From contig NZ_VORB01000001.1 of assembly GCF_007995015.1 (NCBI RefSeq), positions 434,001 through 498,000 of the forward strand: a stretch of DNA of 64,000 nt. The letters are read 5' to 3'. Positions 11,773-17,271 of this stretch are shown here, in pieces. The first letter of the stretch is position 1, and each line of letters opens with the position of its first letter. Source of the stretch: Luteibaculum oceani (GTDB taxonomy: Bacteria > Bacteroidota > Bacteroidia > Flavobacteriales_D > Luteibaculaceae). The position numbers and the translations under genes are program-made. Below the pieces are notes generated by a model that had not been told where the DNA came from, did not search any database, and worked only from the letters and a program-made list of their open reading frames with translations.

Positions 11773-12384
11773 CTATAGATTTAGGAGGTGTTTTTCTATT
11801 TCCCTTGGAAAGTGTTTGTGCTCTAGTTGCTGCACTTTTTGCTGAACATCCTCTGGGGTATCATCGGGATGGACTGCTGTGGAGAATTGAGAAATAATTG
11901 CTCCCTCGTCGTAATTCTCATTTACCTTGTGAATGGTAATTCCCGTTTCTTTCTCGTTTGCTTCCACAACCGCTTTGTGCACATGCATTCCGTACATACC
12001 TTTACCTCCAAACTTGGGTAAAAGGGCAGGGTGGATATTTATAATCTCATTCGGGTAGGCTTCCAAAATATTCTTTGGGATTTTCAGTAAAAACCCAGCT
12101 AGAATTATCCAATTTATATGCTTCTCTTTTAATAAAGTAACTATATCATTGGATTCATAAAGAGTGCTTTTTTTGGCGTGATAACACGGAACCTGATTTC
12201 GGTCAGCCACCTTCCAAATCCCCGCTTCCTTTTTGTTGGTAACAACCAACTTCACCTGAATCTTAGAGTGACCTTTAAAGTGGCTAATTATGGCCTCAGC
12301 ATTGGTTCCTGACCCCGAAGCAAAAATGGCAAGATTCAATTGTGGCAAAGCTTGTAATTTAAAATTCACATCAAATGTATACAA
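11773..12384 (-). CDS. purN: Phosphoribosylglycinamide formyltransferase
   Basis: PurN transfers formyl from 10-formyl-tetrahydrofolate to GAR in purine synthesis. The N-terminal nucleotide-binding loop is LAIFASGSGTNAEAI. The catalytic Asn-His pair is in IINIHPALLPKFGG, and the catalytic Asp lies in the NENYDEGAI region. HKHFPRE near the end is typical of the family. Length is about 203 residues if the TTG at 12384 is used. Later in-frame GTG and TTG codons (residues 6, 13 and 16) would also leave the fold intact, so the start is unsure. It is first in the purN-rnhA-TonB run and is divergent from the deiodinase-like gene. Confidence 0.88.
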   Translation of the reverse strand: MYTFDVNFKLQALPQLNLAIFASGSGTNAEAIISHFKGHSKIQVKLVVTNKKEAGIWKVADRNQVPCYHAKKSTLYESNDIVTLLKEKHINWIILAGFLLKIPKNILEAYPNEIINIHPALLPKFGGKGMYGMHVHKAVVEANEKETGITIHKVNENYDEGAIISQFSTAVHPDDTPEDVQQKVQQLEHKHFPREIEKHLLNL

Positions 12385-12444
12385 AACCCCATGGGCATTG
12401 GAAGCAAAGGAGTTTATTTTATTTTAAACCCATAAACAAATACC

Positions 12445-13128
12445 ATGATTACCCACGATACCAAGAATGAAGCGTTTGTGCCTTACGGAAGAGAAAGATA
12501 TACTCACGAGCAACTTCTAGAAAACATTAAGAGGTTTAAGTCCGATCTTTCAGAAAGGAGGAGTATAAGACAGTTTTCAAATAAAAAAGTACCCAAAGAG
12601 GTAATTGAGAATATACTAGAAGTAGCAAACGGAGCACCATCTGGAGCTAACCGACAACCCTGGACTTTCTGCGTTATATCCAACCCTGAATTAAAAGGGG
12701 AAATAAGAAAACGCGCCGAGCAAGAGGAGTACCTTTCATACAATGGAAGAATGAGCGAGGAATGGCTAAAGGATGTTGAGCCGTTTGGAACAAATCATAT
12801 TAAAGAGTTTATAGATGCAGCTCCTTATATTATTGTTGTATTTAAAAAGGTATACGATAAAGACGAACACAACTACCGAAAAAGCAATTATTACGTAAAT
12901 GAGAGTGTAGGAATTGCGGTAGGGTTTTTACTGACTGCCATTCATCAAGCGGGATTGGCCTCTTTAACTCATACTCCGAGCCCTATGAACTTTTTACAAG
13001 AAGTTTTGGGTAGACCAGAAAACGAACGCCCGTTTCTATTGATTCCAGTGGGATATCCGCACGAAGAGGCCCTTGTTCCCAAGATAGAAAAGAAGCCACT
13101 TAAAGAGGTTTCGGTGTTTTACGAGTAA
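12445..13128 (+). CDS. Nitroreductase-superfamily flavoprotein, iodotyrosine deiodinase-like
   Basis: A 227-residue FMN enzyme. RRSIRQFS (39-46) binds the flavin phosphate, followed by GAPSGANRQPWTF (63-75). The residues that in human iodotyrosine deiodinase form the substrate lid, Glu157, Tyr161 and Lys182, have counterparts with the same spacing: Glu95, Tyr99 and Lys120 in the EEYLSY..GRM to TNHIKE region. The LGRPENERP..LPVGYP-like segment (here LLIPVGYPHEEALVPKI) also matches. This points to reductive dehalogenation of halotyrosines rather than nitro reduction. The vertebrate membrane anchor is absent; the protein should be cytosolic. It is transcribed alone, divergent from purN. Confidence 0.8.
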   Translation: MITHDTKNEAFVPYGRERYTHEQLLENIKRFKSDLSERRSIRQFSNKKVPKEVIENILEVANGAPSGANRQPWTFCVISNPELKGEIRKRAEQEEYLSYNGRMSEEWLKDVEPFGTNHIKEFIDAAPYIIVVFKKVYDKDEHNYRKSNYYVNESVGIAVGFLLTAIHQAGLASLTHTPSPMNFLQEVLGRPENERPFLLIPVGYPHEEALVPKIEKKPLKEVSVFYE

Positions 13129-13133
13129 TTTTC

Positions 13134-13165
13134 TTTGAATATTTATCGTAGATGTGCTTTATTTG
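13134..13165 (+). promoter_or_regulatory. Promoter of the acpP-fabF-rnc-pyk operon
   Basis: TTTG at 13134-13137 and TTTATTTG at 13158-13165, separated by 20 bases, fit the Bacteroidota -33/-7 pattern with one mismatch in the -7 box. It lies 28 bases before the acpP ATG. Confidence 0.5.
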
Positions 13166-13193
13166 CTGCTACTAAATTTTAATTCGAAAGGCA

Positions 13194-13430
13194 ATGTCTG
13201 ACATTAAATCTGAGGTAATAGCAATTATTGTTGACAAATTAGGTGTAGATGAGGGGGATGTAACTCCTGAGGCAAGTTTTACTAACGACCTCGGTGCAGA
13301 TTCACTTGATACAGTTGAGTTGATCATGGAGTTCGAGAAGAAATTCAACATCGCAATTCCAGACGACCAAGCTGAGAAAATCGCAACGGTTGGTCAAGCT
13401 ATTGAGTACATCAGTAACAACGTAAAGTAA
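13194..13430 (+). CDS. acpP: Acyl carrier protein
   Basis: A 78-residue acidic ACP. Ser37 in [10 protein letters not shown] is the phosphopantetheine attachment site, and the four-helix pattern is complete ([16 protein letters not shown] forms the last helix). It carries growing acyl chains in type II fatty-acid synthesis. fabF follows after 16 bases, the usual Bacteroidota arrangement, so the two are co-transcribed. Confidence 0.95.
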
Positions 13431-13446
13431 AAGTAATTTAGATTTT

Positions 13447-14700
13447 ATGGAATTAAAGCGGGTAGTCATAACCGGATTAGGTGCCCTTACTCCAATTGGT
13501 AATACCGTTGAAGAGTATTGGGATGGACTTATTAATGGTAAGAGCGGTGCAGCTCGTATTACCCGCTTTGATCCTTCTAAATTCAAAACGCAGTTTGCGT
13601 GCGAGGTTAAAGGCTTCAATCCTCTTGATTTCTTCGATAGAAAAGAGGCACGTAAAATGGATCTGTTCTCGCAGTACGCGATGGTAGTTGCAGATGAGGC
13701 ATTAAAAAATGCTGGTCTTGCAGAAAATGGTCCAAACCCAGATAGAGCTGGTGTAATTTGGGGTTCTGGTATTGGTGGTTTGCAAACCTTCCAGGAGGAA
13801 TGTGTTTCTTTCGGCCAAGGCGATGGAACACCCAGATTTAATCCATTCTTTATCCCGAAAATGATTGCCGATATAGCGTCGGGTCATATTTCAATTAAAT
13901 ACGGTTACCGTGGTCCTAATTACACTACGGTTTCAGCTTGTGCTTCCTCTACTAATGCATTGTTAGACGCTTTTAACCTAATTCGATTAGGTAAGGCAGA
14001 TGTAATGGTAGGTGGAGGTTCCGAAGCTGCCGTGTGTGAGGCAGGTATTGGAGGGTTCAACGCTCTGCATGCCCTTTCAACTAGAAACGATGATCCTGCA
14101 ACGGCATCAAGACCCTTCGATAAAGATAGAGATGGGTTTGTACTTGGTGAAGGTGCTGGATGTTTGATTCTAGAAGAATTAGAGCACGCAAAAGCTAGAG
14201 GCGCCAATATTATTTGTGAAGTTGTCGGAGGTGGAATGTCTGCCGATGCACATCACATTACCGCTCCTCACCCAGAAGGTCTAGGTGCATTAAATGTTAT
14301 GAAAGCTGCTCTTGACGATGCTCACATGAGTGTTGACGAGCTAGATTACATTAATGTGCATGGTACCTCTACTCCTCTTGGAGATGTTGCCGAAACTAAG
14401 GCAATCAAGTCCATTTTTGGAGAACATGCCTATAAGCTTAACATTTCAAGTACCAAGTCTATGACAGGTCACTTGTTGGGAGCTGCAGGCGCCATTGAAT
14501 CAATAGCTAGTGTATTGGCTGTGAAGAATGGAATTGTTCCTCCTACTATAAACCACTTTACTGATGATCCTGAGTTGGATAACAATCTTAACTTCACTTT
14601 CGAGAAAGCTCAAAAAAGAGAAGTAAGAGCAGCGTTAAGTAATACTTTTGGATTTGGTGGTCATAACACTTCGGTAATTTTTAGAAAGTATAGCGTATAA
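13447..14700 (+). CDS. fabF: 3-oxoacyl-ACP synthase II
   Basis: A 417-residue elongating ketosynthase. The Cys-His-His triad is visible: Cys165 (TVSACASSTN), His305 (NVHGTSTPLGD) and His342 (MTGHLLGAAGA). FGFGGHN near the end is the usual glycine-rich loop. It condenses malonyl-ACP with acyl-ACP. The length matches FabF and the start after acpP is unambiguous. Confidence 0.95.
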   Translation: MELKRVVITGLGALTPIGNTVEEYWDGLINGKSGAARITRFDPSKFKTQFACEVKGFNPLDFFDRKEARKMDLFSQYAMVVADEALKNAGLAENGPNPDRAGVIWGSGIGGLQTFQEECVSFGQGDGTPRFNPFFIPKMIADIASGHISIKYGYRGPNYTTVSACASSTNALLDAFNLIRLGKADVMVGGGSEAAVCEAGIGGFNALHALSTRNDDPATASRPFDKDRDGFVLGEGAGCLILEELEHAKARGANIICEVVGGGMSADAHHITAPHPEGLGALNVMKAALDDAHMSVDELDYINVHGTSTPLGDVAETKAIKSIFGEHAYKLNISSTKSMTGHLLGAAGAIESIASVLAVKNGIVPPTINHFTDDPELDNNLNFTFEKAQKREVRAALSNTFGFGGHNTSVIFRKYSV

Positions 14701-14702
14701 GA

Positions 14703-15425
14703 ATGGCCTTGTTTAGTACTAGCGGAAAGTCTTTCAGAGAACGAAAGCTCCGTTATGTGTTAAAAAATTACCTAAAGCTAAACCCTAAAAATTTAGACTT
14801 ATACTTCTCTGCGGTTGTACATACCTCTTATAAGGGTTATGGTGATGAGCGTGGAACTTATGATAGGTTAGAGTTCCTGGGTGATGCGCTTTTCGGTGCT
14901 TACATTACTGCATGGATATTTACTAAGTACCCACAAAAAAACGAAGGGCAACTTTCTAAATTAAAATCGAAGTTGTGTTCAAGGAAATTTCTGAACACGC
15001 TCGCGTTTAAGCTTCATATTAATCATTTGATCTATTTCTCCACCCGAGAGAATCTTTCAGAAAATTCCATTCCTGGTAATACGCTTGAAGCACTTTTTGG
15101 AGCGGTTTATTTAGATCAAGGATTGGCAGAATTGCACAAGCTTTTTGATCACATAATTAAGCACCATATTAACGTTGCAGAGGTCGATAAGCAGGATATA
15201 GATTACAAAAGTAGGGTGATTCAATTTTGTCAAAAGCACAAAAGAAAACACCGCTTCTTAACTACCGAAACAGATCATAAAAATGGTAGAGATTTTTTTA
15301 CCATTGCACTAGAAATAGAAGGTTTCGATAGTGTTTCGGCTGTAGGTTTTTCAAAAAAGAAAGCCGAACAGCAAGCCTGTAAATTGTTTTACGAAAGTAA
15401 AAAACAAGAATTCGAAGAAGATTAA
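14703..15425 (+). CDS. rnc: Ribonuclease III
   Basis: A 240-residue dsRNA endonuclease. The signature DRLEFLGDALFGAY (about residues 59-72) and NTLEALFGAVYLDQG carry the metal-binding acids. The C-terminal dsRNA-binding domain ends with VSAVGFSKKKAEQQACKLFY split across it (Lys-Lys-Ala-Glu helix). It matures rRNA and processes structured RNAs. It starts 2 bases after fabF. Confidence 0.94.
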   Translation: MALFSTSGKSFRERKLRYVLKNYLKLNPKNLDLYFSAVVHTSYKGYGDERGTYDRLEFLGDALFGAYITAWIFTKYPQKNEGQLSKLKSKLCSRKFLNTLAFKLHINHLIYFSTRENLSENSIPGNTLEALFGAVYLDQGLAELHKLFDHIIKHHINVAEVDKQDIDYKSRVIQFCQKHKRKHRFLTTETDHKNGRDFFTIALEIEGFDSVSAVGFSKKKAEQQACKLFYESKKQEFEED

Positions 15426-15847
15426 TGACCGTACACTACCTAGATTTCGATGACGAGCCCGAATTTCACATGATTGGAATTGCTTGCCATTTGAAAAATT
15501 ATCGCCTGTGCTGGTTAGTTAATAAAGCCTTAAACATAAATCTAGAACGGTCTCAAGATCCCTACGTATTTTGGCCCGGTAAAAGCATAAAATCTGAACA
15601 TGCTTTGTTTACTGGATTTAACGAATTCTGGAAATCGCAGCATTATTTGATTCAAAATAAGGGCTTCCAACAAACCCTGGTGGTCCCAGAACATAGGGCG
15701 GCCGATTACCTTTTAATTACCAAAAATCCTAAAGAAGAGTATTCTACTTTTATTCTGCAGGAACTAAATAAACAAAACTTAATTTTAACGGCGTTTAAAA
15801 TCAATCCGGTTGGATTAAAATCGAGCGCTAATTTGACATTCGAATGA
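15425..15847 (+). CDS. IPExxxVDY family protein
   Basis: A 140-residue protein with the family mark in the form VPEHRAADYLLI (near residues 87-98), where the usual Ile and Val are replaced by Val and Ala. It starts with MIGIACHLKNYRLCWLVNKAL after an acidic leader (DFDDEPEFH). This family is found between rnc and pyk in many Bacteroidota. Its function is unknown. The ATG overlaps the rnc stop by one base and the gene overlaps pyk by 4 bases, indicating tight translational coupling. Confidence 0.85.
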   Translation: MTVHYLDFDDEPEFHMIGIACHLKNYRLCWLVNKALNINLERSQDPYVFWPGKSIKSEHALFTGFNEFWKSQHYLIQNKGFQQTLVVPEHRAADYLLITKNPKEEYSTFILQELNKQNLILTAFKINPVGLKSSANLTFE

Positions 15848-17271
15848 TACGTAAAACCAAAATTGTAGCTACCATAGGACCCGCTTCCTCCTCCAAAGAG
15901 AAGCTTACAGAACTAATTCGGGCAGGGCTTAATGTTTGTAGAATTAATTTTTCTCATGGAAGTCATGAGGTGCACCTAGAGGCAGTTAGAAATATTAGAG
16001 CGGTATCCGATGAATTAAAAATTCCGGTGGCCATTTTAGGAGACCTTCAAGGGCCAAAATTAAGAGTAGGAATGCTTCCCGAAGAGGGCTTAGATCTTAT
16101 AGAAGGAGAAGAGTTGTGTTTTACTACAAAGCCTAACAAAATGGGGGATAAGCAGAATTTATACATCAGCTATTCCTCTTTTGCGAAAGATGTAAAACCA
16201 GGTGAAAAAATTCTCTTGGATGACGGAAAGCTAGAATTAGAAGCTGGCGAAAGCGATGGTGACGCCAGAGTGAAAGCAAAGGTGATTCATGGTGGGATAT
16301 TAAAATCGAAAAAAGGGGTAAACCTACCCAACACTAAAATCTCCCTTCCATCTCTTACGGAAAAGGATTTGGTTGATTTAGAATTCGCCCTTGAGCACGA
16401 TTTCGACTGGATAGGTTTATCCTTCGTTCGTTCGGCAAGAGATATTATAGAACTGAAGCATAAGATTAGCGAGCGCAACAAATTCTCAAGAGTGGTTGCA
16501 AAAATCGAAAAACCGGAAGCGTTAAAAGAACTGGAGGGCATTATCGATGAAACCGATGCCGTTATGGTTGCTCGTGGTGACCTCGGTGTGGAAATCCCTA
16601 TGGAAGAAGTTCCACTTATCCAAAAGGATATTATAAAACAATGTAGAGAAGCAGCAAAACCGGTAATTGTTGCAACCCAAATGATGGAGAGCATGATAGA
16701 AAATGTTACTCCAACCAGAGCTGAAGTTAATGATGTGGCAAATGCGGTAATGGATGGCTCAGATGCGGTAATGCTTAGCGCAGAAACCTCGGTGGGGAAA
16801 TACCCTGTGGAAACGGTGAACGCCATGCGTAAAATTCTTGTTAAAACAGAAGCTTTTGAGGGGATATTTCACCATGAAACTGCGCCTGGAGATTTTGGAG
16901 GCGATCGATTTATTTCGGATTCCATTTGTTACAACGCCTGTCGTTTGGCTCAGCGTGTTAATGCAATTGGAGTAGTGGCCATGACCCACTCTGGTTACAC
17001 GGCCGTGAAGCTATCATCGCAGCGCCCAAAATCAACGGTTTTTGTTTTTACGGGAAATAAAAGACTGATAACCGCTTTAAGTTTGGTTTGGGGTGTAGAG
17101 TGTTTTTATTACGATAAGTATGTATCTACAGACCACACCATAGCAGATATCAAGTATATCTTAAAGCGCGAAGGCAAAATTAAGAATGGAGATTACCTTA
17201 TTAATATCGCCTCTATGCCGATAAGCGAAAAAGGAACTTCGAATATGATAAAACTAAGTCAGGTAGATTAA
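15844..17271 (+). CDS. pyk: Pyruvate kinase
   Basis: A 475-residue enzyme catalysing the last step of glycolysis (PEP + ADP to pyruvate + ATP). Seen in order: TKIVATIGPASS start, NFSHGSHE, the B-domain, the active-site block VVAKIEKPEAL, VMVARGDLGVEIP and VATQMMESMI. The C-terminal domain has MTHSGYTAVKLSSQRP. Length is typical for the bacterial enzyme without the extra PEP-utiliser domain. Confidence 0.95.
   Translation: MIRKTKIVATIGPASSSKEKLTELIRAGLNVCRINFSHGSHEVHLEAVRNIRAVSDELKIPVAILGDLQGPKLRVGMLPEEGLDLIEGEELCFTTKPNKMGDKQNLYISYSSFAKDVKPGEKILLDDGKLELEAGESDGDARVKAKVIHGGILKSKKGVNLPNTKISLPSLTEKDLVDLEFALEHDFDWIGLSFVRSARDIIELKHKISERNKFSRVVAKIEKPEALKELEGIIDETDAVMVARGDLGVEIPMEEVPLIQKDIIKQCREAAKPVIVATQMMESMIENVTPTRAEVNDVANAVMDGSDAVMLSAETSVGKYPVETVNAMRKILVKTEAFEGIFHHETAPGDFGGDRFISDSICYNACRLAQRVNAIGVVAMTHSGYTAVKLSSQRPKSTVFVFTGNKRLITALSLVWGVECFYYDKYVSTDHTIADIKYILKREGKIKNGDYLINIASMPISEKGTSNMIKLSQVD

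Follow-up and report, generated by a model that had tools for sequence, protein, structure and literature searches.

Within the window, the whole 64,000-nucleotide stretch of Luteibaculum oceani DNA analysed here, an open reading frame upstream of acpP raises the question of whether this bacterium encodes an iodotyrosine deiodinase (IYD) or a general nitroreductase that resembles one, and what a bacterium would use such an enzyme for. The frame was intact from its ATG start, with no internal stop. The Pfam nitroreductase domain PF00881 was matched at residues 36-204 (E 1.6e-25), and a second Pfam nitroreductase family was matched more weakly, which agrees with the nitroreductase FMN motifs read in the initial annotation. 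The residues predicted to bind FMN were invariant among 21 aligned relatives. No NCBIfam model scored above its cut-off for this protein. Since Pfam returns only the broad PF00881 and NCBIfam nothing above cut-off, automatic annotation would read just "nitroreductase family protein", the label that annotated plasmid-borne IYD relatives do carry. The AlphaFold2 model, computed as a single chain from 21 window and locus sequences, reached a mean pLDDT of 89 and a pTM of 0.85, with poor prediction at residues 1-7 only. The features of the locus are listed below.

Table 1. Features of the IYD locus in the window, with decayed copies at the corresponding site of two other genomes
Feature	Position	Strand	Remarks
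IYD-type flavoprotein (predicted halotyrosine reductive dehalogenase)	12445..13128	+	227 aa, nitroreductase fold; ORF, phmmer, trees, AlphaFold2
Predicted FMN-binding Arg38, Arg39, Arg42, Ser66-Gly67-Ala68	12556..12648	+	FMN role by homology
Predicted substrate-lid segment	12727..12804	+	aligned with human, mouse and Haliscomenobacter IYD
Glu95	12727-12729	+	lid residue
Tyr99	12739-12741	+	lid residue
Lys120	12802-12804	+	lid residue
Thr177	12973..12975	+	equivalent of human Thr239; invariant in IYD clade
purN (glycinamide ribonucleotide formyltransferase)	11773..12384	-	divergent neighbour; conserved synteny, name from sequence resemblance
acpP (acyl carrier protein)	13194..13430	+	65 bases downstream of IYD; conserved at most IYD loci in the order
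Decayed IYD	L179:479-1126 (G013)		stops and frame breaks
Decayed IYD	L176:3123-3371 (G039)		stops and frame breaks

The family of the protein was assessed by phmmer searches and by maximum-likelihood trees. The best PDB matches were 5KO7, 5KO8 and 5KRD (E 3.8e-84); human IYD was matched at E 1.4e-55, mouse IYD at about 1e-52 and Thermotoga IYD at 3.3e-28, and generic nitroreductases began at E 9e-15. In a tree of 67 proteins, from which the Thermotoga IYD was left out, the query shared a clade with all triad-bearing bacterial relatives and the IYDs of Haliscomenobacter, human and mouse (support 100/99). The tree placement proposed earlier as a check on the identity thus put the window protein inside the IYD clade and not in a nitroreductase clade. 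With the lid and Thr regions removed and the closer outgroups 3gfa, 4dn2 and 3g14 added, the IYD clade was retained at 100/97, so the triad does not drive the placement and counts as evidence independent of the tree. Outgroup branches were long in both trees, and the order of the outgroups is not to be read; the branching within the IYD clade, and with it the position of the animal IYDs, was poorly resolved. Scores separated the family sharply as well: in genomes of the order, full-length IYDs scored at least 294 bits and other proteins at most 49 bits, save contig-cut or decayed IYDs, and the lowest IYD score listed across the phylum was 257 bits.

The initial annotation had given the Glu-Tyr-Lys lid triad the same spacing as in the animal deiodinase, and the alignments bear this out. 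When phmmer aligned the query to human (4ttb) and mouse (3gb5, 3tnz) IYD, Glu95, Tyr99 and Lys120 fell on Glu, Tyr and Lys. Because the human and mouse alignment was gap-free up to Asn182, the triad spacing (4 and 21 residues) equals that of 157-161-182, which we take to be the residue numbers of the human lid triad. Thr177 is an IYD hallmark that the initial annotation had not listed; it corresponds to human Thr239 with the same numbering offset of 62 as the triad, Thr239 being presumably the counterpart that contacts flavin N5 and is typical of IYD. Every one of the 150 IYD-clade rows, which cover Bacteroidota, actinomycetes, Deinococcus, Paraburkholderia and mammals, carried the complete E/Y/K/T set; these are rows and not independent species, as some loci were returned by several searches and the window's own gene is included. 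The full set occurred in none of the other nitroreductases compared, namely L081 and L082 (the genome's own nitroreductases, both PF00881), E. coli NfsB, 4dn2, 3gfa, 3g14 and five plasmid-borne proteins. L082 carries a Thr aligned at 177 and lacks the E/Y/K triad. Judged by its invariance in the clade and its absence from the others, the E/Y/K/T pattern is more than chance would give.

These data also bear on the possibility that the protein is a general NfsB/FRP-type nitro/flavin reductase with a mere resemblance to IYD. Such an enzyme would belong to the same Pfam family and could give the weak NCBIfam nitroreductase and BluB matches, which lay far below cut-off; however, the query fell in the IYD clade at 100% bootstrap whether the lid was kept or removed, the genome encodes other nitroreductase types separately (L081, L082), and the lid triad and Thr177 are conserved. 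We consider this reading very improbable, and the trees and the residue table led us to reject a generic nitroreductase. Outside the IYD clade, NfsB formed a group with L081 and 3of4, and L082, which also matched YdjA-like chains, grouped with 2i7h. BluB (5,6-dimethylbenzimidazole synthase) was rejected at 53.7 bits against the NCBIfam cut-off of 150. A search for phage copies returned distant nitroreductase-like matches only. The IYD-like identity proposed at the outset was upheld by tree placement, lid triad and flavin Thr together, and the window gene is an added member of the IYD family, of which bacterial representatives have been published and Bacteroidota structures solved. According to PMC13078365, which cites Phatarphekar et al. 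2014, IYD is known in organisms ranging from mammals to bacteria.

Going by family biochemistry, the enzyme would be homodimeric, with FMN bound where the subunits meet. A free halogenated tyrosine zwitterion would bind over the flavin via Glu95, Tyr99 and Lys120, the lid would fold down on the bound halotyrosine, and Thr177, in contact with flavin N5, would favour one-electron steps. Reduced FMN would remove iodine, bromine or chlorine as halide, and tyrosine would be released. In the cell, the enzyme would clear halotyrosines that are imported or produced by hypohalous acid before they poison metabolism or translation, and the tyrosine would then be re-used or, in genomes like this one, degraded via HPPD and homogentisate dioxygenase. 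Taken together, the sequence comparisons make it very likely that the gene is an IYD orthologue with the halotyrosine dehalogenation of its family, probably for halotyrosine clearance.

To gauge how common the enzyme is, we counted IYD genes across genomes of the phylum. The initial annotation had described deiodinase homologues as known in a few bacteria, an estimate that proved too low: a single-copy IYD was present in 115 of 395 phylum genomes, spread over 31 families, and a near-full-length IYD in 80 of 199 genomes of the order, which also held a few contig-cut or decayed copies. Absence is slightly overcounted in these figures, as G014 was scored as lacking IYD though a contig end truncates its copy. 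Large replicons of Streptomyces, Nonomuraea, Deinococcus and Paraburkholderia also carry IYD. By record titles, the named relatives come from soil, lake and sludge as well; with the weak co-occurrence with tyrosine catabolism described below, this gives no support to the initial suggestion that the enzyme could let a marine cell recover halogenated tyrosine. At both Deinococcus plasmid loci (L148:6779-8365 and L150:6697-7791), the gene after IYD bears the annotation FAD-dependent oxidoreductase and is possibly an electron donor. In L150, a haloacid dehalogenase gene also lies about 3 kb upstream.

We further assessed the link between IYD and tyrosine catabolism. In the window genome, 4-hydroxyphenylpyruvate dioxygenase (HPPD) adjoins a distant hmgA-like cupin (L146:3889-6204; C1 about 518.4-520.7 kb), and fumarylacetoacetase-family proteins are present, so that released tyrosine could be degraded. 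The hmgA model TIGR01015 had no match at E 1e-40 in the 199 order genomes, and the cupin next to HPPD matched it weakly (61 bits vs a cut-off of 510.75). This weak match suggests that the absence of hmgA at that threshold may reflect the sensitivity of the model; the order may rely on a divergent homogentisate dioxygenase. HPPD was found in 191 of the 199 order genomes and, being nearly universal there, is uninformative on coupling to IYD within the order. Across the phylum, HPPD was present in 75 of 115 IYD carriers vs 135 of 280 non-carriers (odds ratio 2.0, p 0.003, with kinship ignored). The remaining 40 of 115 carriers had no HPPD, so recovery of tyrosine for the HPPD route is not the general reason for IYD; in three families (f28, f49, f63) every sampled carrier was without HPPD, which argues for a role apart from homogentisate-type degradation. 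Tight coupling to tyrosine catabolism was rejected, the phylum-wide association being weak. As a general role of IYD, detoxification is at least as likely as carbon recovery through HPPD.

The genomic position of the gene was compared across the order and the phylum. Several families of the order share the arrangement seen at window positions 11773-17271 (purN on the reverse strand, IYD, acpP, fabF, rnc, a small ORF and pyk), in which IYD is the removable element; its usual site in the order is between purN and acpP-fabF. A scan for promoters and terminators gave no signal above shuffles, and no halogen or tyrosine metabolism genes were found among the neighbours at the window locus or the compared IYD loci. 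Of 29 other IYD loci in the order, 20 have the gene directly preceding acpP-fabF in the same orientation, and nine named-contig loci also have it directly before acpP-fabF. The same-strand arrangement in the 20 loci would fit a role for IYD in fatty-acid synthesis, but outside the order IYD sits beside other genes (his genes or a short-chain dehydrogenase), and within it IYD may be absent or decayed while acpP-fabF persists. With linkage specific to the order and the slot found empty or decayed, a function together with fatty-acid synthesis was rejected as extremely improbable, and the linkage looks like an inherited position. Six genomes without IYD had a closed slot in which purN adjoins acpP (L163, L165, L171, L174, L177, L178). 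Two genomes of one genus still held a decayed, frame-broken IYD exactly in the purN-acpP slot (Table 1), indicating recent loss. The order-wide slot, its empty and decayed forms and the other sites outside the order together point to vertical inheritance with repeated loss.

The use that bacteria make of IYD is the main remaining interest. One reading is that the fold and lid are kept while the enzyme naturally acts in bacteria on something other than a halotyrosine, such as a different zwitterionic phenol. This would suit the occurrence of IYD in lineages from soil, freshwater and sludge (by titles), where no source of halogen is apparent, the lack of co-localised halogen or tyrosine genes and the weak HPPD link (odds ratio 2.0); against it, all four IYD-specific residues are kept in bacteria and animals, which suggests the same ligand, and the closest solved relative is an active deiodinase. 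We regard this reading as unlikely. For the phylum as a whole, we tentatively raise a broader proposal, itself rather doubtful, in which IYD would be a common single-copy, dispensable accessory that protects from halotyrosines or acts on another zwitterionic phenol, independent of the homogentisate pathway. For the window organism, we infer that clearing of halotyrosines is the most likely role of IYD. Given the constant slot, the recurrent losses and the loose link to HPPD, the bacterial role can be tested by setting carriers against genomes that naturally lack IYD. This work contributes one intact, well-placed bacterial IYD and figures on the frequency of the enzyme in the phylum.

Among known systems, the closest is the enzyme of 5KO7, 5KO8 and 5KRD, which we take to be Haliscomenobacter hydrossis IYD, a characterised and active deiodinase. 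It comes from the same phylum and shares 57% identity with the window protein, ungapped over query residues 9-226, as well as the E/Y/K/T set and the IYD clade; the window protein differs by a few substitutions, such as Asn69 where most have His, and by a longer end branch. Human and mouse IYD (DEHAL1; 4TTB, 3GB5) share 41% identity over the soluble domain, together with the lid triad and Thr. Animal IYDs have an N-terminal membrane anchor, which the window protein lacks. The enzyme of 6PZ0, 6Q1B, 6Q1L and 6TYK, presumably from Thermotoga and named iodotyrosine deiodinase in the PDB, is shorter (192 aa) and more distant (E 3e-28). E. coli NfsB, L081 and L082 show 22-31% identity to the window protein over gapped local alignments and, unlike it, have no lid triad and fall outside the IYD clade.
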